Assembly: GCA_015067885.1 (NCBI GenBank) | Contig: SVLO01000006.1 | Location: forward strand, 22,475-86,474 | Reading direction: 5' to 3' | DNA length: 64,000 bases | Source of the DNA: Oscillospiraceae bacterium | GTDB taxonomy: Bacteria > Bacillota > Clostridia > Oscillospirales > Oscillospiraceae | Part shown: positions 2,545 through 47,862 of the stretch, piece by piece | Numbering within the stretch: position 1 is the stretch's first letter | How the letters are laid out: each line of letters opens with the position of its first letter | Made by a program: the position numbers and the translations under genes | Notes under the pieces: model-generated | The model's input: only the letters and a program-made list of their open reading frames with translations | Told to the model about the DNA's origin: nothing | Databases searched by the model: none

Positions 2545-3927
2545 TTACCTCGTTCCGGGGTTATAGCGGTAATATTCGTCCTCGGACATGGGGGCGGTAC
2601 CTGCGTCCACCGGGTCGATGCCGAACACGGCGTCGCACAGGTCGTAGCCGTCCTGGGGCACGGTGATCACGCGCACGCCCAGCTCCCGCTCCACGTCGTC
2701 CACGGAAACGTCGTCCAAAAAGACCCGCTCGCCGCTGCGCAGCATACTGGCGGGGATGAGCAGCCGTTGCCCCAATTCTTTGCCCCGCAATTGGGCGATC
2801 AGGTCGCCGCCGGTGACCAGTCCCGCCACCACTACGGTGTGGCCAAAGAAATCATTTTCAATGGCGTAGACCCGGCCATCCACCTTGGGACACTTGGCCT
2901 TGGCCCGTTCCACCAGTTTGGCAAGGAAGGGTGCTGCCGACACGCCGGTGGCGATGGAGAAGGGGGTGGTCCCCTCCATCTCCTCCCCGTCCAGCAGGTC
3001 CAGCGCCCGGTCAAACTCACTCATCAGCAGCCGCAGCATACCCACACCGTTGTCCAACTGGGTAAACTCCTCGAAATAGTCCTCATCGGGCAGGTCCCGC
3101 CCGGCGATGAGGTAAAACTCGTCCGAACACCACACAAGACTGGTACCGGTTTTCTCTTTATGTGCCGCCGCGAACCGCTCCACCTGGTCCACCAGCGCCT
3201 CTGCCTGTTCTTTGGTATAGGGCCGCAGGGGGTACAGCCCCTCTCTGAATTTGGTCACGCCCACGGGAACAACGGACACGCTGTTCACCGCCGGGTACAT
3301 GGCCGCAAGGTCGGCAAGGCTTTTGTCCAGCGCCGGGCCGTCGTTGATGCCGGGACAGGCCACGATCTGGCAGTTCATGGTGATGTCCGCCCGGGCAAAC
3401 CGCTCCATAATGTCGATGCCCCGGCCTGCGTTTTTATGGCCCAGCATCATGGCGCGCAGCTCCCTGTCCGTGGTGTGTACCGAGATATTCACCGGTGACA
3501 CCCGCAGGTCGATGATGCGCTGCACCTCCCTGTCGGTAAGGTTGGTCAGGGTAATGTAGTTGCCCATCAGAAAGGACAGGCGGGCGTCGTCATCCTTAAA
3601 ATACAAAGTTTGGCGCATATTTGGGGGAAGCTGGTCCACAAAGCAGAAAATGCAGTTGTTGGCGCAGCACCGGGCCCGGTCCATCAGGTAGGTTTCAAAC
3701 TCCAGGCCCAGGTCCTCCCCCTCGTGCTTGACCACCCGCAGGTGGCGCACCTTACCCGCAGAGTCCTGCAGCGTCAGGGTCAGGCGGGTGTCGTAGGCGT
3801 GAAACTTATAGTCCAGCACGTCCACGATGGGTTTGTCGTTGATATGGGTCAGGGTTTCCCCCACCCGTACCCCCGCCCGGTCGGCGGGACTGTGCCGCGC
3901 CACGCGGCACACACAGGTCAAACTCAT
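2545..3927 (-). CDS. DUF512 family protein with PDZ-like and radical-SAM-like N-terminal part
   Basis: Conserved clostridial protein of unknown reaction. Residues about 5-60 look like a PDZ-like module (SPADRAGVRVGE). A cysteine cluster follows, with C88, C92 and C95 in CANNCIFC, resembling a radical-SAM-type iron-sulfur binding motif, and the remainder is the DUF512 domain. I choose the ATG at 3927, giving 460 residues, because the AAGGAGG site at 3934-3940 is six bases upstream; the GTG at 3933 abuts that site. About 57 bases separate it from der. Its conserved place next to der hints at a role in translation or ribosome assembly, which is inference only. Confidence 0.85.
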   Translation of the reverse strand: MSLTCVCRVARHSPADRAGVRVGETLTHINDKPIVDVLDYKFHAYDTRLTLTLQDSAGKVRHLRVVKHEGEDLGLEFETYLMDRARCCANNCIFCFVDQLPPNMRQTLYFKDDDARLSFLMGNYITLTNLTDREVQRIIDLRVSPVNISVHTTDRELRAMMLGHKNAGRGIDIMERFARADITMNCQIVACPGINDGPALDKSLADLAAMYPAVNSVSVVPVGVTKFREGLYPLRPYTKEQAEALVDQVERFAAAHKEKTGTSLVWCSDEFYLIAGRDLPDEDYFEEFTQLDNGVGMLRLLMSEFDRALDLLDGEEMEGTTPFSIATGVSAAPFLAKLVERAKAKCPKVDGRVYAIENDFFGHTVVVAGLVTGGDLIAQLRGKELGQRLLIPASMLRSGERVFLDDVSVDDVERELGVRVITVPQDGYDLCDAVFGIDPVDAGTAPMSEDEYYRYNPGTR

Positions 3928-4003
3928 ACGCACCCTCCTTTCCCTACTTCCTCAACTTATAGAATACCACATTTCGCAGGAAAATGGAAGTAATTTACAC
4001 CCT

Positions 4004-4864
4004 TTATTTTGACCGCACGGACCGGGTATATTCCGTGGGAGTCATACCGGTAATGCGGTGGAACACGGTGGTAAAATACTGGCTGGTATTAAAGGACAGG
4101 CGCGCGGCAATTTCCGAGAAGTTCAAGTCGCTCTCCCGAATCATCTTTTTGGCCGCGTCTACCTTCAGGCGGGTGAAATATTCCATAACACCACATCCCA
4201 TTTGGTCCCGAAAGGTCTTTTTCAGTACCGAGGCGGACACGTTGAAGTGCCGCCGGATATCCTGAAAGCGCAGGGCGCACTCCACATTCTTCTCCAAATA
4301 GTCGCACACCTGGGCCAGCAGGGCGCTGTTCTCCGTCTTGGGCAGGGGTTCGGTACGGCGGTTGCCCCGGATGAGCAAAATCAGCAGCTGCTCCAAATAC
4401 AGGCGCACAAGCTGCTCACAGCCGAAGGCGCTGTCCTCCGCCTTGCGCATACTGCGAATGTAGGAAAGGCCCAGGGGCGTGGAGAAGGCCTGCTGGGCCT
4501 CTTTAATGATTTGGGACAGCAGATTCCGCTCCTCCGCCGTGCAGGCAATGGACATACCGGCAATATTCATCAGCTCCGGACAGGCGCAGTCAAAGGACAA
4601 AATCACCGAGTTTGCCGCCTTCACGCCGTCGCAGCGGATATTGTGAAACTCATTGGGCTTGTGCAGGTACAGGTGACCCGTGGGCAGGACCAGCTCCTGC
4701 GCTCCCGCCGTGACGATGACACTCTGCTTGTCGGTGTAGACCAGCTCCCAAAAGTCGTGCAGCTCCCCGGAGTGGGCAAAGTCCTTGGTATATTCAAAAT
4801 AGTGCACCGTATAAACCCCGTCCACATGGACCGGACTGTGCAGCAATGTCTTTTTGTAATCCAT
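4004..4864 (-). CDS. AraC-family transcriptional regulator with cupin sensor
   Basis: Predicted transcription factor of 286 residues. The N-terminal half has the pattern of an AraC-type cupin pocket (HDFWELVYTD near residue 35, then LYLHKPNEFHN). The C-terminal 90 residues hold two helix-turn-helix motifs, including LNFSEIAARLSFNTSQYFTT and a typical TGMTPTEYTRS end. I prefer the ATG at 4864, preceded by GCAGGTGA, over an upstream in-frame ATG without a ribosome site. It is divergent from the phosphohexomutase gene at 5028, which is a possible target; the sequence does not show the ligand. Confidence 0.85.
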   Translation of the reverse strand: MDYKKTLLHSPVHVDGVYTVHYFEYTKDFAHSGELHDFWELVYTDKQSVIVTAGAQELVLPTGHLYLHKPNEFHNIRCDGVKAANSVILSFDCACPELMNIAGMSIACTAEERNLLSQIIKEAQQAFSTPLGLSYIRSMRKAEDSAFGCEQLVRLYLEQLLILLIRGNRRTEPLPKTENSALLAQVCDYLEKNVECALRFQDIRRHFNVSASVLKKTFRDQMGCGVMEYFTRLKVDAAKKMIRESDLNFSEIAARLSFNTSQYFTTVFHRITGMTPTEYTRSVRSK

Positions 4865-5027
4865 CTTCGTCACCTGCCTTGGTTTTATTCTAACAGACAG
4901 GGCCGGGTTTTTCAATCCCATTGCGACCAAAATTGTAAAACAACGGACTGGATTTATAACATTTTCATAAAAAAGGTGTGTTATACTTGGATTATCGACA
5001 GACCGAAATCAAACAGGAGGAATTACT

Positions 5028-6434
5028 ATGATTCAGTTCGGTACCGGCGGCTGGCGCGCCGTCATCGGAGAAGATTTTGTTTGTGACAACGTGCGCAGGG
5101 TCGCTGCCGGTATTGTGCAGTTGATCCGTGCGGAGAACAAGGGGGACAAGCCCGTTATCATCGGCTACGACCGCCGTTTCCTTTCCAAGGAGGCTGCCCA
5201 GTGGGTGGCCGAGGTGCTGGCCGCCGCGGGCATCCGGGTGTGGTTCCTGCACCGCAGCGCCCCCACTCCCCTGATCATGCACACTGTCAAGGACGAGAAG
5301 CTGTATTTCGGCATTGAGATCACCGCCTCCCACAACCCCTCCAACTACAACGGCATCAAGCTCATCGTGGAGGAGGGCCGGGACGCTCCTCTGGAGACCA
5401 CCCACAAGCTGGAGGGCTTCATCGCCCAGGCCCAGCCTCAGTTCATCCCCTTTGACCGGGCGGTGGCCGCCGGCACGGTGGAGTATTTGGAAAACCCCTT
5501 TAACAAGTTCCTGGACGACATCATCGCCCTGCTGGACATGAAGGCCCTGCGCAATCGCGGCCTGCGGGTGCTGTTTGACACCATGCACGGTTCCGGTGCC
5601 TACCCCCTGATGGTCATCTTCCACACCGCCCGCTGCACCATCGACGCCATGAATTTGGATCGGGACGCCTACTTCGGCGGCATGATGCCCGCCCCCAGTG
5701 AAAAGAGCCTGACCATGCTGCAGGACCGAGTGGTCAAGGGCGGCTACGACATGGGCATCGCCATGGACGGCGACGGTGACCGACTGGGCATCATCGATAA
5801 GACCGGCCAGTACGTGGATGCCAACGAGATCCTGTGTATGCTGTACTACTATTTGGTCAAGTACAAGGGCTGGAAAGGCGGCGTGGTGCGCAACCTGGCC
5901 ACCACCCACATGCTGGACCGCATTGCCGAGAGCTTTGGCGAGACCTGCTACGAGGTACCTGTGGGCTTCAAGTACATCTCCTCCAAAATCGACGAGGTGG
6001 ATGCCGTCCTGGGCGGCGAGTCCTCCGGCGGCCTGACCGTCCGGGGCCATATCCACGGTAAGGACTCGGTGTACGCCGCCTCTCTGTTTGCCGAGATGGT
6101 CAGCGTCACCGGCAAGTCCCCCGCCGAGATGATGGACGAGCTGCGTCGGCAGTTCGGCACCTTCGTCATGGTGGACGACAACCTGCGTTTCACTCAGGAG
6201 AAGAAAGATGAGATCCAAACCACCCTCATGGTGGACAAGAAGCTGCCCGAATTTGACCGGGAGGTGGTCCGGGTCAGCTACGAGGACGGCTGCAAGGTGT
6301 ACTTTGCCGACGGCGGTTTCGTCATCTGCCGCTTCTCCGGCACCGAGCCGCTGCTGCGTATCTTCGCCGAAAGCAGCGAGCGCGCCAGCGCCGAGGCTGC
6401 CATCCGTGCTTTCAAGGATATGCTCAAGGTGTAA
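5028..6434 (+). CDS. Phosphoglucomutase/phosphomannomutase family protein
   Basis: Cytosolic alpha-D-phosphohexomutase that interconverts hexose 1- and 6-phosphates. The 468-residue protein carries the phosphoserine loop TASHNPSNYNGIK with the active serine at about residue 101, the metal loop DGDGDRLG at residues 247-254, the sugar loop GGESSGG, and the phosphate-binding SGTEPLLRI near the C-terminus. All four active-site loops are present, so it should be active. Whether it prefers glucose, mannose or glucosamine cannot be told. The AGGAGG ribosome site is clear, and a strong terminator hairpin follows the stop. Confidence 0.9.
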   Translation: MIQFGTGGWRAVIGEDFVCDNVRRVAAGIVQLIRAENKGDKPVIIGYDRRFLSKEAAQWVAEVLAAAGIRVWFLHRSAPTPLIMHTVKDEKLYFGIEITASHNPSNYNGIKLIVEEGRDAPLETTHKLEGFIAQAQPQFIPFDRAVAAGTVEYLENPFNKFLDDIIALLDMKALRNRGLRVLFDTMHGSGAYPLMVIFHTARCTIDAMNLDRDAYFGGMMPAPSEKSLTMLQDRVVKGGYDMGIAMDGDGDRLGIIDKTGQYVDANEILCMLYYYLVKYKGWKGGVVRNLATTHMLDRIAESFGETCYEVPVGFKYISSKIDEVDAVLGGESSGGLTVRGHIHGKDSVYAASLFAEMVSVTGKSPAEMMDELRRQFGTFVMVDDNLRFTQEKKDEIQTTLMVDKKLPEFDREVVRVSYEDGCKVYFADGGFVICRFSGTEPLLRIFAESSERASAEAAIRAFKDMLKV

Positions 6435-6441
6435 TAAACCC

Positions 6442-6478
6442 AACAAGGGCGGCTCGTATGAGCCGCCCTTGTTTTTTG
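6442..6478. terminator. Rho-independent terminator after phosphohexomutase
   Basis: A 14-bp perfect stem (AACAAGGGCGGCTC) with a 4-base loop is followed by a T-rich tract. It lies between convergent genes, the phosphohexomutase and the MFS carrier. The T-run after the right arm suits the plus-strand gene best. Confidence 0.9.
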
Positions 6479-6508
6479 TGCATCTGTAAAGGGATCTTCA
6501 CCGTTTCC

Positions 6509-7699
6509 TCAAAGCGTTTTTCTGTTCGCCCTGTTCAGGATCAGCAAGCCAACTACAAGAAGAATCGGGAATACTGTAGCCACAAGCAAACCTGTTTTCA
6601 GATTGCCTCCTGCCAGATCTGAAATGCTCCCCACCATGGTAGGGCTTACCGTTGCACCTAAATCACCAGCCAATGCCAGAAACGCAAACATTGCCGTTCC
6701 GCCCCGCGGGCATTTCTGCGCGGATATACTGATTGAGCCGGGCCACATAATACCAACCGCCAGACCGCAAAGCGCACAGCCGGCAAGTCCAAGAATCGCT
6801 ATAGCAGACAACGACGCCAATAAATAGCACCCGGCACACACAATTCCGCAAACAAGCATGACCTTCGTCAAGTCAAGCTTTTCGCTGAACATTCCATGCA
6901 GCACACGAGCTACGCCCATAAACATCGCAAATAAGCAAGGACCAGCCAAATCGCCAACCGTTTTAGAAACCCCGATGGCAGATTCGGTAAATGCCGAAGT
7001 CCATTGCGTCATCGTAGCTTCCGAACCACCCGAACACACCATCAGCAAGATCATTAACCAAAAAATCGGTGTTTTTAACAGCTTGCCAATGCCCATGCTC
7101 GCACCATCTTCTATCAGCCGTTCTATGGGACAGCTAATAAAGTTAAAGGTGTTATACAGCGGCACCAACGCCCAAATAAACGTAAGAATCTTCCAGTTGT
7201 CCACCCCGAACACAGCAAAAAAGATCGTAGATCCCAAAACAACACCCATGGCGCCCCAACAGTAGAACGAATGCAGCAGGCTCATCATGCCATTTTTATT
7301 TTCAAAGGGACAAGCCTCCACAATGGGACTTACCAAAACTTCAATCAGGCCACTGCCTACGGCATAGAGCACAACCGCAATCAGGATTCCAAGAAAGGGG
7401 GTTGGAAACACTTCCGGCAAAATTGCCAACAGGATAAGGCCCACAAACGATAACACCTGAGAGGCCACGACACAGATACGATATCCCAGTTTGTCCGCAT
7501 ATTTTGTCGCCACAAGGTCGGTAAGTAATTGCGTAAAATAGAACACCATCGGAATCATCGCAATGTTTTCAAGCGTGATTCCATACGTACTCATAAACGT
7601 CAAGAATAGCAGCGGCGAAAAATTAGCGGATATAGCCTGCGTAACAAACCCAAGATAACAAGCTGTCAATGTTTTCTTATAATTCTTTTGTTCTGTCAT
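6509..7699 (-). CDS. MFS transporter
   Basis: Polytopic membrane carrier of the major facilitator superfamily. The 396-residue protein has about twelve hydrophobic segments, starts with a short cytoplasmic tail (MTEQKNYKK) and has the loop ATKYADKLGYRICV between helices 2 and 3, where MFS proteins carry a basic signature. The ATG at 7699 has a GGGAG site upstream and is preferred over one at 7723. The substrate cannot be read from sequence. The gene looks AT-richer than its neighbours, which suggests acquisition, and has no metabolic partner beside it. Confidence 0.8.
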   Translation of the reverse strand: MTEQKNYKKTLTACYLGFVTQAISANFSPLLFLTFMSTYGITLENIAMIPMVFYFTQLLTDLVATKYADKLGYRICVVASQVLSFVGLILLAILPEVFPTPFLGILIAVVLYAVGSGLIEVLVSPIVEACPFENKNGMMSLLHSFYCWGAMGVVLGSTIFFAVFGVDNWKILTFIWALVPLYNTFNFISCPIERLIEDGASMGIGKLLKTPIFWLMILLMVCSGGSEATMTQWTSAFTESAIGVSKTVGDLAGPCLFAMFMGVARVLHGMFSEKLDLTKVMLVCGIVCAGCYLLASLSAIAILGLAGCALCGLAVGIMWPGSISISAQKCPRGGTAMFAFLALAGDLGATVSPTMVGSISDLAGGNLKTGLLVATVFPILLVVGLLILNRANRKTL

Positions 7700-42900: not shown

Positions 42901-42950
42901 AAAGTCAATAGAAAGTTTGCGTCTGTAGTATTGTGAACTCGGTGATGAAA

Positions 42951-43178
42951 ATGAAACTCTCTTTTGGCGATAAGGTCCGGGTTCTGCGTGAGGAGCAAAA
43001 TTTGTCCCAGACCGAGTTAGGCAAGGCGCTGAATATGACCCAGCGCAAAGTGTCTTATATTGAGTGCGGCAAATACGAGCCAAGTATCGAGGATATCGTG
43101 GCCATCGCCGTGTTCTTCGACGTGTCCGCCGATTATCTGCTCGGAATTTCAAAAGGAAAACCATATCCGGAGCGTTGA
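42951..43178 (+). CDS. Cro/C1-family helix-turn-helix regulator
   Basis: A 75-residue DNA-binding protein made almost entirely of an HTH_3 domain: FGDKVRVLREEQNLSQTELG, then ALNMTQRKVSYIECGKYEPS and VAIAVFFDVSADYLLGIS. The ATG at 42951 has GGTGAT just upstream; other in-frame starts at 42933 and 42945 are possible. It lies 253 bases outside the integrated element and is probably a host gene, acting on the divergent membrane-protein gene or on itself. Confidence 0.85.
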   Translation: MKLSFGDKVRVLREEQNLSQTELGKALNMTQRKVSYIECGKYEPSIEDIVAIAVFFDVSADYLLGISKGKPYPER

Positions 43179-43394: not shown

Positions 43395-43430
43395 CAAAAA
43401 AGCAGACACCCAAATGGGTATCTGCTTTTT
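43395..43430 (-). terminator. Original terminator of the tRNA-Arg gene
   Basis: On the minus strand, AGCAGATACCC folds back on GGGTGTCTGCT and runs into TTTTTT. It follows directly after the displaced 3' end of the tRNA gene at 43431, so it probably terminated the tRNA before the element entered. Confidence 0.75.
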
Positions 43431-43482
43431 TGGTACGGCTGAAGGGATTCGAACCCCCGACCTTTTGGTTCGTAGCCAAACA
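43431..43482. repeat. Distal attachment site: displaced 3' end of tRNA-Arg
   Basis: 52 bases identical to 47786-47837. They cover the tRNA from its encoded CCA through the T arm to the anticodon stem. Upstream tRNA sequence is missing, so this copy is not a functional tRNA. Confidence 0.93.
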
Positions 43483-43603
43483 AAGGGCCGTTCCGGCCCA
43501 ACCCTGTACAAGTTCCGAAGAACCCGCAACACATTGGAATTGCTTGATTTTTACACTCTTATTATACCAAAACCCAGCAGCAAAAGCAAGCAGAATTTCC
43601 TAA

Positions 43604-43636: not shown

Positions 43637-43675
43637 AGCAAAAGAAAGGAGCGGGATTTCTCCCTGTCCTCCTTT
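43637..43675 (-). terminator. Terminator of the minus-strand gene trio
   Basis: On the minus strand, AAAGGAG...GGGA pairs with TCCC...CTCCTTT and runs into CTTTTGCT. The stop codon at 43674-43676 is part of the stem. Confidence 0.7.
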
Positions 43676-44192
43676 AAGAATTTGATGGTTTTAAGAGTTT
43701 GATGTAGCCATTAGTACTGCCCTCGAAATATTTCACCCGCAAACGATAATTATAATCTAGAATAGAACCAGAGTGAGCTTTAAAGCTAATGTAACCTCGA
43801 TATTCAATCGTATCGCCCACATAAAGAGATTGAGCGACATCCTTATCATCAGAACTTCGGTCTACATACAATAGCACACCATTGTCGAGACATATGTACC
43901 TGTCATCGTAGTTTGTCGACCAACCATCAAGTTCCCCATAGTTTAGCAATTGAACAATCTTACCCGAACCGCTGACTTCACAACCCATATAGGATTCCTT
44001 TGTTCTTCCGTCTTTTTCGAAAATATTTACAAGCTTTTTTACACTCATTGTTTCTGTGGTGCCATCTTCTTTTATGATTGTCAGCTTATTGCCTCCTCCG
44101 CCAAATATAGCGAACGCAATTCCAACCAATGCAACCAAAACAACCACAAGCGCAAGAATCAATGCCATTCTTTTTTTCATTTGCTTCCTCAT
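43674..44192 (-). CDS. Membrane-anchored protein, possible OB-fold, element-encoded
   Basis: A 172-residue protein with a basic start and one N-terminal membrane helix (MALILALVVVLVALVGIAFA), then a soluble, probably extracytoplasmic domain. The domain alternates beta-type strands and contains GCEVSGSGKIVQLLNY and LYVGDTIEYRGYISFK, a pattern like tRNA_anti-type OB folds. No exact function can be given. Its ATG overlaps the upstream helix-turn-helix gene (ATGA). There are no in-frame TAG codons and it ends in TAA. Confidence 0.65.
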   Translation of the reverse strand: MRKQMKKRMALILALVVVLVALVGIAFAIFGGGGNKLTIIKEDGTTETMSVKKLVNIFEKDGRTKESYMGCEVSGSGKIVQLLNYGELDGWSTNYDDRYICLDNGVLLYVDRSSDDKDVAQSLYVGDTIEYRGYISFKAHSGSILDYNYRLRVKYFEGSTNGYIKLLKPSNS

Positions 44193-44374
44193 CTCCTATT
44201 CAATACGCAACCCGCTCCACGGATTGCAGCCTCATACTCATGCACATATCGGGAAACTGTACTTTCCCCTCTACGCAGCTGCTTGGCAATCTTCACAAAG
44301 GTATATCCCTCTTGATAAAGCTGCCACATCTTTTCCTTTTCCCGCTCCGTAACGCGAGTTCCCTTTGCGGCCAT
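44189..44374 (-). CDS. Small helix-turn-helix protein, element-encoded
   Basis: A 61-residue basic protein with a resolvase-type helix-turn-helix: REKEKMWQLYQEGYTFVKIA, then AKQLRRGESTVSRYVHEYE. It could regulate the element or act as an excision factor. It overlaps its neighbours on both sides (TAATG upstream, ATGA downstream), so the three minus-strand genes are one translationally coupled unit. Confidence 0.65.
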   Translation of the reverse strand: MAAKGTRVTEREKEKMWQLYQEGYTFVKIAKQLRRGESTVSRYVHEYEAAIRGAGCVLNRR

Positions 44375-44571
44375 TACTTGACCACCTTATCCTCGGCCCG
44401 GAGCATAGTTTCTTTCATGGCCTTGTCAAACTGGTCTTTGACATAAGTTTCCGCCGTCCACTTCTTGTTCGAACCACCATCAGCCAAAATCTTGTTCATT
44501 TTATCCAGTTCCGGGAAGAAAGATTTGGGGAGAATGATACGGCCCTTGGTAGTGTCCAGAATGATACGCAT
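44374..44571 (-). CDS. Small protein of unknown function, element-encoded
   Basis: A 65-residue charged protein with no recognised domain. The first third reads like a beta strand pair (RIILDTTKGRIILPKSF), the rest like a helix rich in Lys and Glu; an RHH-type DNA-binding fold is possible but not shown. GGAGGAAAAAAC precedes the ATG. A terminator-like hairpin lies 23 bases before the start, so expression may be attenuated. It is the first gene of the minus-strand trio. Confidence 0.6.
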   Translation of the reverse strand: MRIILDTTKGRIILPKSFFPELDKMNKILADGGSNKKWTAETYVKDQFDKAMKETMLRAEDKVVK

Positions 44572-44658: not shown

Positions 44659-45009
44659 GCAAGTGTTTTTTGAACTTTTTCGAAAATTTTATCGTTTCCA
44701 GTAGAAATCCGATGAAAACAGTCCGACCACGCGCCGTTTTTCTGCGTGTATTGGTCGAAACGATGCGTTTCCGCTGTAATTTTCCATGTTCCCCTCCGTT
44801 TTCGCCTGTGTTCACACAAATCCACCCTGTTTCCGGTGCGTTTCGCAGTATTTTCTATCAATTCGCATCGGTAACGGCAAAATTCTGCTGCGTTTGGTCA
44901 CGGCACGGCCCACATTTTTTCGCTCTCCCGCTCCAGCAGTTCAGTTTTCCCGAATATCACCCTCCCCCTATCCAAAAGAAACTCAACACTCTCCGTCCAC
45001 CGGTCTTTT
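44659..45009. other. Gene-free region with iteron-like TGCGTTT repeats
   Basis: No convincing gene is seen; frames here lack ribosome sites. TGCGTTT occurs at 44764, 44837 and 44889. The first two are followed by related sequence (TCCGCTGTAATTTTC and TCGCAGTATTTTC). Variants GTTTCC and GTTTTCG lie between. Together with the AT tract and a winged-helix gene just downstream, this could be an origin of the element. No tRNA cloverleaf is visible on either strand. Confidence 0.35.
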
Positions 45010-45038
45010 TTGATTTTTTCATAAAATTTTGTTATAAT
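45010..45038 (+). promoter_or_regulatory. Promoter of the TAG-containing operon
   Basis: TTGATT (45010-45015) and TATAAT (45033-45038) have a 17-base spacer in an AT-rich stretch, 62 bases before the first ATG. Its quality argues that the downstream genes are expressed and not simply decayed. Confidence 0.7.
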
Positions 45039-45100
45039 ATTTATAGAAAAGATGAGAAAAACAGCTTTTCTGCAAACAATTTATAACAAGGAGGTCGCTT

Positions 45101-45343
45101 ATGAGAAATTATCATAAGGACGATATGTTCAATTGGTTTCTGCGCGGACTGGATATGACCGCGTAGGCCACGCTACGGTCAATGTACGCAAAAAGCCGCC
45201 TCACGGATGAGGCAAACCACCGCCGGGAAATGGAACAAATGAAAAAGGAAATCACAGAAGATGTGCTTTCCCGCATCAGCATCCAACTTGACGATACTGC
45301 CTTAAAGCAGCTGCGCGATATGCTGCGCAGCCTTGGCAATTAA
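45101..45343 (+). CDS. Recoded ORF 1: 80-residue helical protein with one in-frame TAG
   Basis: The ATG at 45101 follows a perfect AAGGAGG site. The frame runs 81 codons to TAA with a single TAG at codon 22 (45164-45166, between Ala and Ala). After it the frame continues without any break: RSMYAKSRLTDEANHRREME, a charged amphipathic helix, to a C-terminal LRDMLRSLGN. If TAG is read as Gln the product is an 80-residue, mostly helical protein of unknown role. It is 13 bases from ORF 2. Alternative reading: a 21-residue peptide followed by debris, which would not explain the preserved downstream frame and ribosome site for ORF 2. Confidence 0.6.
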
Positions 45344-45356
45344 AGGAGGATTGCAA

Positions 45357-45935
45357 ATGCCTATTGTAACCGCTCCAAATCAACGCACGATAGTCGTTCA
45401 CCGCGAACGCGTGACGACTGATTTTCTCGGTATCAAAAACGAAAACTGGCAAGCCGCTGCGCGTGATCTCGGCGCACACGCCTTGTAGCTGTATCTATAC
45501 CTTGCAGCAAACGCAAACAACTATACCTTTGCCCTTTCCCCTGTTGCCGTGCGGCAAGCGATTGGAATGGCCCGCTCCACCTATCACGACCAGTTCCACA
45601 AGCTTGTTGACAAAAGGTATCTTGTCCCGGCGCACGGAAACACCTTTGACTTCTATGAAGTTCCCGTTGTCGAGCAGAGCAAATCTTTGAATACGGATAA
45701 CGGATTAAATTTCAACGAATGTCCGTCTGCCGACGATAAAGTTAGTCCGCACGGATATGGTGTATTGCCGGAGAATATAGAAATAGATAATAAGACAGAT
45801 ACCCCAAATAACGATTGGATAAATAAAGGGGTTATTTCTCCAATAGAAACAAGAGAAATCAGAATCCCTTGTCCAGTAGCAACAGGAAAGTACAGACCAA
45901 AACCCGTAGAGAAAAAGGTGGAGTTTGATTTCTAA
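45357..45935 (+). CDS. Recoded ORF 2: winged-helix, replication-type protein with one in-frame TAG
   Basis: The ATG at 45357 has AAAGGAGG seven bases upstream. 193 codons end in TAA, with one TAG at codon 44 (45486-45488). The TAG falls inside a conserved-looking motif: ARDLGAHAL, TAG, LYLYLAANANNYTFALSP. Phage and plasmid winged-helix proteins of this type carry Gln, Lys or Met at that place (such as AFKLYLYLA). The following VRQAIGMARSTYHDQFHKL is a recognition-helix-like segment. The C-terminal third is low in structure and may be a partner-binding tail. Without read-through only a 43-residue fragment or an internal GTG start (45549) is possible. Confidence 0.65.
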
Positions 45936-46372
45936 TGGCAACTTATGTAGAGAACGCATACAATTGGTTGAAGCGGAAAGGACTGGCAGAGAAATACGAA
46001 CACGCGGGAATTTACTGCATCAAACTTGACAACGATATTGTCTATATTGGAAAGAGCGGAAATATGCTGCGCCGGATTGCATGGCATTATGTTGGTATTT
46101 AGACCGGGAGCGAAAAGAAATACCGCATATTATCCGAGGCGCAGCGCAAGGGCCACCCTATTACTTTTGATGTTCTTTATTATGCCAAGAGCCAACGATA
46201 CGCGGACAAGCTTGCGGAAATAGGTGTAAAGGAGGGCGAATACATACGATAGTTTCGCCCTCTGCTCAATACGCAGATACCCAGGAAACAGGACTGGCAC
46301 AAGTTTGAAGTAAATACCATCGACGCAAGAGAAACCCTCAATTTAATATTACAGCAGGAGCGGGAGGAATAA
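45935..46372 (+). CDS. Recoded ORF 3: GIY-YIG nuclease with two in-frame TAGs
   Basis: The ATG overlaps the ORF 2 stop as TAATG. 146 codons end in TAA with TAG at codons 56 (46100-46102) and 106 (46250-46252). The start of the nuclease domain is intact: GIYCIKLDNDIVYIGKSGN gives GIY-x9-YIG, followed by MLRRIAWH with the conserved Arg. After the second TAG the sequence reads FRPLLNTQIPRKQDWHKFEV, a typical end of phage GIY-YIG proteins, where the residue before it is usually polar (Gln or Lys) or aromatic. Both halves belong to one domain, so the intact protein requires read-through at both sites. Confidence 0.65.
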
Positions 46373-46393
46373 ACCTCCCGCTCCCTTTCTTTT
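46358..46393 (+). terminator. Terminator of the TAG-containing operon
   Basis: GGAGCGGGAGG (46358-46368) pairs with CCTCCCGCTCC (46374-46384), followed by CTTTCTTTT. The ORF 3 stop lies in the loop. Confidence 0.9.
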
Positions 46394-46441: not shown

Positions 46442-47641
46442 TCAAAGGTTGAACGCAGCAGCATATTTTTCGGTTGCCGCCTGCATTTGCCGCAAGTCGG
46501 CTTTCACATAAAAGTTAAGCGTGGTACTGGCATTTGCATGGCCCAAAATCTCCTGTACGCTTTTGATGTCCGCGCCCTGCGAAAGCAACAGCGTGGCGCA
46601 GGAGTGGCGCAAATCGTGCGGGGAAAGGTCGGGCAGGTCGTGCCGTTTCATAAATCGTTTGAGCCGCCGCGTGATATTATTGGGGTCTCTCGGTTCAAAC
46701 ACGCTTGTTGTGTTGGGGAATAGGTACGCATCGTTTAGAATTGCGTTGGGATGTTCTGTCTGCATTTGCTTTCGATACTGGAGCAACAGCGAAAGGGTGC
46801 TGTCCATCAAAGGTACAACACGCATACTGTTTTCTGTTTTCGGTGTGCCGACTACAATGCCATTTCCTGCGGAGTAAGTCACATTTCTACAAATCTTGAT
46901 GGTCTTTGTTTCAATGTCGATGTCTTTCCATTTCAACCCTGTACATTCTCCGCGCCGGATTCCGGTTGTAATCAGCAGTTGCAGGATGCAACGGAAGTCA
47001 AGCGTGCAATCACCCAACGCAGCAAAGAACTGTTGCGCCTCCCGCTCGGTAAATGCGTCCACCGGATGTTTTTGCAGCTTGGGAGCATCTACCCTGTCCA
47101 TGGGATTCTTGAAAATCAAATCGCGTTTCTGCGCATCGGCAAAGATAAGTTTCAGCGTTGCATATTGATGGCGCAGTGACTTGGCAGAAAGGCCCGCTCC
47201 ACTCCGGCCCGCGTGCTTGGTTCGCAGATACATGAGATACTTTTCAATGTCGGTATGCGTAATGTCCTGTATATAATCCGTGTCAAAGTAATCACAAATC
47301 AGCGAAACCATGGAGCGGTAAAATGTGATAGTGGTCGGCTTGCGTTCTCCGTTTTCGATTTCAAGAGGAAACCAAGTGTGTTCGATATAGTCCGCAACGC
47401 GTACCCGCTTGGGTTTCTCCGGCTGTTTCTCTTGCTCAAATCCCTTGGTTCGCAATTCCGTTTCCCAAATACTTGCCGCCGTCTGCGCCGCTTTCAGTTC
47501 CTTGGCGGGTGTTAGTCCTGCGGGCGGTGTCCATGTCTTGCAGCGGATGATTTGCTTGTTGTGTTCATCTCTGCCAAGGCACACCTTGAATTTGTAGGAA
47601 GTGGGTTTGCTGTTGCTCTTGGTCGGATAGATAGAGGCCAT
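46442..47641 (-). CDS. int: Tyrosine integrase of the element
   Basis: Site-specific recombinase of 399 residues. It has an N-terminal arm-binding region, a SAM-like core-binding domain (YIEHTWFPLEIENGERKP begins it), and a catalytic domain with the expected residues: Arg in TGIRRGECTGLKW, HxxR in HDLRHSCATLLLSQG, the second His in ILGHANASTT, and the Tyr in NFYVKADLRQ. I choose ATG 47641 (MASIYPTKSN) with AAAGGATG upstream. It ends in TGA and contains no TAG. It lies 145 bases from the intact tRNA-Arg, which it would use as attachment site. Confidence 0.95.
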   Translation of the reverse strand: MASIYPTKSNSKPTSYKFKVCLGRDEHNKQIIRCKTWTPPAGLTPAKELKAAQTAASIWETELRTKGFEQEKQPEKPKRVRVADYIEHTWFPLEIENGERKPTTITFYRSMVSLICDYFDTDYIQDITHTDIEKYLMYLRTKHAGRSGAGLSAKSLRHQYATLKLIFADAQKRDLIFKNPMDRVDAPKLQKHPVDAFTEREAQQFFAALGDCTLDFRCILQLLITTGIRRGECTGLKWKDIDIETKTIKICRNVTYSAGNGIVVGTPKTENSMRVVPLMDSTLSLLLQYRKQMQTEHPNAILNDAYLFPNTTSVFEPRDPNNITRRLKRFMKRHDLPDLSPHDLRHSCATLLLSQGADIKSVQEILGHANASTTLNFYVKADLRQMQAATEKYAAAFNL

Positions 47642-47682
47642 TTTGAACATCCTTTCTTGGTGTTCCAATGCGCTTTTTTAGG

Positions 47683-47747: not shown

Positions 47748-47784
47748 CAAAAACCCTGTAACCGTTGTGGTTACAGGGTTTTGT
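47748..47784 (-). terminator. Element-supplied terminator for tRNA-Arg
   Basis: On the minus strand, AACCCTGTAACC pairs with GGTTACAGGGTT and runs into TTTTGG. It replaces the host terminator that integration displaced to 43395-43430. Confidence 0.8.
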
Positions 47785-47785
47785 G

Positions 47786-47837
47786 TGGTACGGCTGAAGG
47801 GATTCGAACCCCCGACCTTTTGGTTCGTAGCCAAACA
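47786..47837. repeat. Proximal attachment site within tRNA-Arg
   Basis: 52 bases identical to 43431-43482, covering the anticodon stem to the CCA end of the tRNA gene. Crossover must have occurred within this block. Confidence 0.93.
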
Positions 47838-47862
47838 CTCTATCCAGCTGAGCTACAGCCGC
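47786..47862 (-). tRNA. tRNA-Arg (anticodon ACG)
   Basis: On the minus strand, a 77-base cloverleaf with encoded CCA. Acceptor GCGGCTG pairs with CAGCCGT (one G-T pair); the anticodon stem TTTGG/CCAAA encloses CTACGAA, anticodon ACG; the T arm carries GGTTCGAATCC. The 3' part was restored by the element's attachment sequence, so the tRNA remains functional. Confidence 0.97.

Follow-up and report, generated by a model that had tools for sequence, protein, structure and literature searches.

The window analysed here, the whole stretch of 64,000 nucleotides of contig SVLO01000006.1 from an Oscillospiraceae bacterium, contains a 4.4-kb element integrated in a tRNA-Arg gene, and inside this element lies a three-gene operon whose reading frames are interrupted by the codon TAG. 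The locus raises the question of whether the operon is dead or is translated with TAG as a sense codon, and, in the latter case, in which cells and with what consequence. The features to which we refer are listed below.

43426..43482, no strand assigned: left att-like direct repeat copy, 57 nt (repeat comparison)
43674..44192, minus strand: 172-aa protein with a weak tRNA_anti-like match, below cut-off
44189..44374, minus strand: 61-aa helix-turn-helix protein, likely regulator (HTH_23)
44374..44571, minus strand: 65-aa protein, possible regulator (weak MraZ-like match, below cut-off)
45009..45039, plus strand: promoter motif of the family, TTTGATTTT...TATAATA, with -35 TTGATT, a 17-bp spacer and -10 TATAAT
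45101..45343, plus strand: P1 (gene 1), 80 aa, assigned to no known family, interrupted by TAG at 45164 (open frame)
45357..45935, plus strand: P2 (gene 2), 192 aa, predicted winged helix and disordered tail, TAG at 45486 (frame and model)
45935..46372, plus strand: P3 (gene 3), 145 aa, resembles T4 endonuclease II and is a predicted GIY-YIG nuclease, interrupted by TAG at 46100 and 46250 (profile and model)
46360..46393, plus strand: likely intrinsic terminator that overlaps the end of P3, a hairpin with a T-rich run behind it (read from the sequence)
46442..47668, minus strand: tyrosine integrase, 408 aa, zero in-frame TAG (PF00589, E 1.8e-30)
47781..47837, no strand assigned: right direct repeat copy, inside tRNA-Arg(acg)
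47786..47862, minus strand: tRNA-Arg(acg), the integration site (tRNA call)

The two 57-nt repeats that flank the element are 96% identical and lie 4355 bases apart, the left one within a partial tRNA match at 43434-43505 (Rfam, 27.7 bits, below the gathering score). The element has both an att-type repeat in a tRNA gene and an integrase, two features by which satellites are recognised. Its minus strand encodes the integrase, two small likely regulators and the 172-aa protein, and its plus strand encodes P1-P2-P3. A scan of the seven element genes yielded no match to capsid or large terminase genes, and packaging genes, the terminase small subunit included, were not recognised among them either; P0003 and P0002 had zero matches among 50,697 phage records. 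Just outside the left repeat, at 42933-43178, is a small frame resembling a helix-turn-helix repressor.

Each operon frame runs from ATG to TAA and is interrupted by TAG alone, with no internal TAA, TGA or frameshift, as the first-pass annotation of this DNA had described. The four TAGs are where that annotation had placed them, at 45164 (codon 22 of P1), 45486 (codon 44 of P2), 46100 and 46250 (codons 56 and 106 of P3). Its further statement that all seven element genes terminate at TAA or TGA also proved correct, the integrase and regulators are free of in-frame TAG, and its grouping of the three TAG genes into one operon is supported; the P3 start codon lies inside the P2 stop (ctaATGg).

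Relatives of P3 were sought in several genome sets. Among 99 genomes of relatives we obtained 5 P3 matches in 4 genomes (the window's own included), among 394 genomes of the order 3 matches in 3 genomes, and among 400 genomes of the family 10 matches in 7 genomes, six of these ten matches being the window or earlier loci again. All of these matches carry in-frame TAG, and the TAA or TGA given in three of the last 10 rows are terminal stops. When one genome per species was scanned, 56 stretches matched the pattern, 29 of them encoding P3 relatives. These 29 loci come mostly from metagenome-assembled genomes whose names refer to sites in animal guts and whose labels are Oscillospiraceae or Clostridia; two cultured isolates, Pseudoflavonifractor phocaeensis An901 and Oscillibacter valericigenes An860, each contribute two copies. 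One locus (L030), on a 3.9-kb contig, belongs to a genome labelled Bacteroidaceae and is possibly misbinned or the product of cross-phylum transfer. Two, perhaps three, different TAG-bearing elements occur together in cultured strains (L017 with L032; L020 with L036; genome G577 with L168, L173 and L174). In larger elements, one to four genes of the c0 family (about 145 aa; for example L036:8243-8674) stand in tandem before P3; this family is nearly TAG-free and has no clear family match.

Together with the window and two viral contigs, L010 and L041, the 29 loci gave 32 P3 rows, which became 30 for the codon census and counts after removal of L016 (a copy of L010) and L026 (a near-copy of L024). 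In-frame TAG is present in 27 of the 30 copies, with up to four per copy and 58 in total (58, 60 or 62 depending on the start codon chosen), alongside zero internal TAA or TGA. The three TAG-free copies, L011, L014 and L025, do not form a single clade. The first-pass annotation had asked whether sibling strains carry other stops, and all 32 frames run to a conserved C-terminal Asn without TAA or TGA. The trait is thus one of a family rather than of decay in one strain, in keeping with what that annotation had supposed. In the protein database, which holds 1534 clusters of P3 relatives, some of the 12 entries inspected have Gln where close relatives have TAG, as seen at the protein level.

Simple decay of a dead operon, to which the in-frame stops and the TAG-free copies might point, is contradicted by these data. 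Decay by C-to-T change would also yield TAA and TGA, so their absence counts against it; if such changes fell at random on CAG, CAA and CGA, the probability of zero TAA or TGA among 58 stops would be about 9e-15, a figure from a simple model on present-day codon counts. Past the first TAG, dN/dS is 0.06-0.26 (16 unsaturated pairs, 13 of them distinct; 3 further pairs were saturated), which indicates that purifying selection acts on the codons beyond the TAGs. The model of the read-through P3 of the window also has a mean pLDDT of 90.6 across both TAG sites. Given also that 27 of 30 copies share the trait, we give decay almost no credence. The residue inserted at TAG is most likely Gln, judging from the aligned family. 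Across 46 columns (86 cells) of P1-P3, Gln scored best of the 20 residues with 30.0 nats, followed by Lys (25.5) and Asn (20.1). For P3 alone, Gln and Lys nearly tie by columns (17.0 vs 16.8), and by cells Gln is favoured (48.0 vs 37.2); by cells of P1, Asp is slightly above Gln (7.7 vs 7.4). At the clearest sites, the LNTQIP column of P3 and one column of P2, TAG stands in 5 copies and in L021, respectively, and all the other sequences (25 and 19) have Gln. Such columns, in which every other sequence has Gln, argue against a reading of TAG as pyrrolysine or another residue, as do the three host genomes, where PylS did not rise above its cut-off (there was one weak match in the window's own genome) and the tRNA-bearing stretches yielded no CUA tRNA; in spite of the second rank of Lys and the near tie in P3 columns, we judge that reading very improbable. 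The earlier claim that Gln fits all four sites of the window holds clearly across the family, but not at each site singly: homologues have Met 6, Gln 4, Leu 4 and others 5 at the P2 site, Asp 6, Gln 2 and others 2 at the P1 site, and, at the two P3 sites, Lys 15, Gln 6 and others 8 in one case, with Lys 6, Gln 5, Ala 5 and others 9 in the other. In raw counts, TAGs in P3 are followed by A 27 times, by C 22, by T 6 and by G 3, compared with A 57, C 27, G 20 and T 20 after CAA or CAG.

The hosts, for their part, use TAG as a stop. It ends 17 of 109 host ORFs (8 of 44 in the window, those of the element excluded, and 9 of 65 flanking ORFs elsewhere), compared with 2 to 9 of 126 element genes outside the operon (p 7e-5 to 0.06), and RF1 is present in all three genomes inspected, namely the window's own, An901 and An860. 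The first-pass annotation had proposed that a CUA suppressor tRNA would be brought by a helper phage, and here the search did not bear it out: none was found in the window or family loci, nor in the examined parts of the related recoded phage contigs, nor with ARAGORN among the 42, 48 and 45 tRNAs called in the stretches around tRNA matches of the three host genomes. The window's own genome is 87% complete, which makes its negative result the weaker one. Candidates obtained with a DNA pattern for CUA tRNAs were mostly tRNA-Arg(UCU) and the three others were not CUA tRNAs; we make no claim of family-wide absence. The hosts do possess tRNA-Gln(ctg). Of 715 code-15 phages, 375, about half, encode a CUA suppressor tRNA (PMC11210395), so such a tRNA is not required of a code-15 element.

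Use of TAG is uneven between genes. Its share of Gln codons is 60/186 in P3, 10/66 in P1, 4/28 in the small gene c12, 8/165 in P2 and 1/279 in the integrase; an automatic count, for which the starts are unsure, gave 3/40, 2/24 and 2/20 in the small regulator clusters c6, c8 and c9. The promoter motif divides TAG-bearing genes from mostly TAG-free ones. This near-consensus motif was derived from the family loci, and a looser form, used for the scan, occurs at most 1.5 kb ahead of P3 in 23 of the 30 loci, with 0 in 20 shuffle rounds and zero occurrences in 151,615 bases of host sequence. In the 23 loci, TAG accounts for 53 of the 297 Gln codons that follow the motif and for 8 of the 266 that precede it (p 3.7e-9; the P3 of L036 was left out of this tally). 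The motif stands directly before P3 in L018, L019, L022, L024, L030, L031 and L037, where the genes ahead of it contain zero TAG (L018, L019, L022, L031), one (L030) or three each (L024, L037). TAGs upstream of the motif fall in c12 of L024 (3), c0 of L037 (3), c13 of L030 (1) and the integrase of L033 (1). A selected lock, under which each P3 would retain at least one TAG, gains no support from the counts: 4 TAG-free copies were seen versus 3.5 expected (4 rather than 3 in this test owing to the start assigned to L035), the dispersion of TAG counts in P3 is not below chance (p 0.23), and the numbers agree with TAG taking a random share of the Gln codons.

The only profile match of P3 among solved structures was T4 endonuclease II (PDB 2wsh, E 2.6e-8), to which it is about 25% identical in a structure alignment, and by structure comparison its fold also resembles I-TevI and UvrC. 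It has the GIY and YIG motifs with the active-site Tyr, Arg, Glu and Asn, and Tyr27, Tyr37, Glu100 and Asn112 are invariant in the 32 rows. The first TAG lies ahead of the active-site Glu in 27 of 27 TAG-bearing copies, so that shortened P3 products should be inactive. T4 degrades bacterial DNA with endonuclease II (PMC1564403). No known relative of P1 was obtained in family and profile searches. The P2 model is weak beyond the winged helix (pLDDT 67.0); P2 gave nothing significant against PDB (best E 0.29) and one match against BFVD (E 0.001). Homology of P2 to the P2-like protein of phage L095 was also considered, and at a profile probability of 7.8% the two are alike in type only.

The strongest hint that the family is of satellite nature is the plasmid pRGI00117 (HG796263, L179), a circular rat-gut plasmid of 7.2 kb. 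It carries a TAG-free Rep3 gene, then the promoter motif, then eight frames with 14 TAGs. These include a TAG-bearing P3 relative (39.6% identity, E 8e-15), a terminase small subunit with two TAGs (phrog_2538, E 6.7e-29) and a winged-helix protein that shares 37% identity with its counterpart ahead of TerS in the recoded phage L102; no frame on the plasmid has the length of a large terminase. In the HG796263 record, only short pieces are annotated at 3694-7665, where the eight TAG-bearing frames run.

P3 relatives are also found in phages. L041 (IMGVR_UViG_3300037249_000425) is a 27-kb phage with TAG in many genes, in which P2 and P3 relatives stand shortly before a TerL with 10 TAGs. It resembles the window element in having TAG-bearing P2-P3 relatives in the same order and an integrase, itself with zero TAG, that clusters with the integrases of many elements; it differs in its TAG-bearing terminase, portal-like and tail genes and in lacking the promoter motif. 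Among 11 TerL loci in viral contigs, at least 4 TAGs were counted in L097 (the same as L041), L101, L102, L103, L105 and L106, two in L104 and none in four. In L041, L101, L102, L103, L105 and L106, TAG is present in TerL and other genes, and the close relatives L098 and L099 are TAG-free. Relatives of the L041 TerL occur in 47 of 350 family genomes, none being TAG-bearing among the matches listed. In phages L092, L094 and L096, a TAG-free P3 precedes the terminase. Phage L095 has one TAG in its P2-like gene and four in P3, with none in the terminase, portal-like and head genes; at 1531-2532 of this contig, TAG is limited to the DnaD-like and GIY-YIG genes plus one doubtful short frame. The motif clearly heads the terminase block in L096 alone: an opposite-strand frame lies between motif and block in L095, the motif is on the minus strand in L094, and five of six recoded phage contigs scanned are without it, even at six errors, with L102 having one copy at one error. 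The P3 relatives beside phage terminase genes and the TAG-bearing TerS of the plasmid indirectly support the satellite-like nature that the first-pass annotation had suggested for the element.

Collectively, these findings lead us to favour, with modest confidence, a family of phage satellites of gut Clostridia in which the operon is most likely written in the code of a helper that reads TAG as Gln, and the integrase and regulators in that of the host. Our confidence stays at this level because the motif clearly heads a terminase block only in L096 and most recoded phages are without it; it is also weighed down by the failure to find a suppressor source in the loci, host stretches and phage contig parts, by the lack of a recognised packaging gene in the window element, by the TAGs ahead of the motif in a few loci and by P3 TAG counts that fit chance. 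In an uninfected cell, ribosomes would halt at the TAGs, and the DNA-binding protein P2 and nuclease P3 would be left incomplete. As an amber-recoding phage replicates, decoding would change and P1, P2 and P3 would be made, whereupon the completed P2 may act on the element's own DNA and the EndoII-like P3 may cut host or helper DNA, to the element's advantage. The stronger proposal that the code itself is the switch, such that amber codons keep an EndoII-like nuclease able to destroy the host in check in satellites and plasmids, and the altered decoding by a recoded phage tells them that infection has started, the helper being sensed via translation and not by a protein or promoter alone, is put forward tentatively, as we consider it rather doubtful. 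The TAG-free P3 copies and the TAG-free P3 of L092, L094 and L096 argue against a strict helper switch. Of the idea in the first-pass annotation that the operon awaits a helper, the decoding of TAG most probably as Gln and the host-code integrase and regulators stand, and the strict form of the switch is opposed by the TAG-free copies.

The main rival to the satellite reading is a defence system with the same amber gate, a trap that would be completed when a phage brings amber suppression, its nuclease then destroying phage or host DNA. A nuclease resembling the one that T4 turns on bacterial DNA (PMC1564403) and a first TAG that always precedes the active-site Glu in the 27 TAG-bearing copies would suit such a trap, but the known defence families gave no match to the element except one weak P3 hit (E 0.0071), TAG-free copies exist, and the terminase small subunit of the plasmid relative is better suited to a satellite; on balance we regard defence as unlikely. 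A constant throttle, whereby a near-cognate host tRNA-Gln reads TAG at a low level and keeps a harmful nuclease scarce, would agree with the lack of a suppressor gene in the loci and the tRNA-bearing stretches of three genomes, with Gln as the fitting residue and with the tRNA-Gln(ctg) of the hosts. With up to four TAGs per P3 and RF1 present, however, its output would be very small, and the number of TAGs fits chance instead of a set level, making a throttle less probable still. The operon might otherwise be a fragment of the late region of a recoded phage, placed on an unrelated integrase and with no present satellite life, as the position of P2 and P3 relatives before the terminase of L041 could suggest. 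The same gene order in about 12 separate small elements with regulators and integrase, the existence of a plasmid form and the purifying selection all argue against such a fragment, which we hold to be improbable.

If the satellite reading is correct, a change of genetic code would be common to phages and their parasites, and such parasites could be found through their TAG-bearing operons. Standard annotation misses the genes of these operons, the plasmid record with its short pieces being a case in point. The elements in cultured An901 and An860 make TAG decoding without a visible suppressor testable.

Compared with known systems, the nearest in decoding are the code-15 gut phages, which read TAG as Gln (PMC9523058 and PMC11210395). 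They share with the element in-frame TAGs that fit Gln, a host with TAG as stop and a concentration of TAG in some genes, with others such as the integrase free of it; those systems, however, are full phages, whereas the carriers here, an integrated element of 4.4 kb and a plasmid of 7.2 kb, have neither capsid nor large terminase genes. Rereading of TAG is already known for phages, but the literature searches, which took in few subscription papers, listed no satellite or plasmid with this trait, and the family appears new to that extent. T4 endonuclease II and P3 are alike as GIY-YIG nucleases, P3 by prediction, at about one quarter identity. Phage satellites such as PICIs, PLEs and PICMIs are small integrated elements with an integrase, opposite-strand regulators and no capsid genes, and the window element resembles them in all of these respects. 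It differs from them in its TAG-bearing operon, in having no recognised packaging gene and in being far smaller than PICIs; with 4.4 kb between its repeats, compared with roughly 10-15 kb for a PICI, we do not file it as one. The related plasmid, like such satellites, encodes the small terminase subunit but not the large one.
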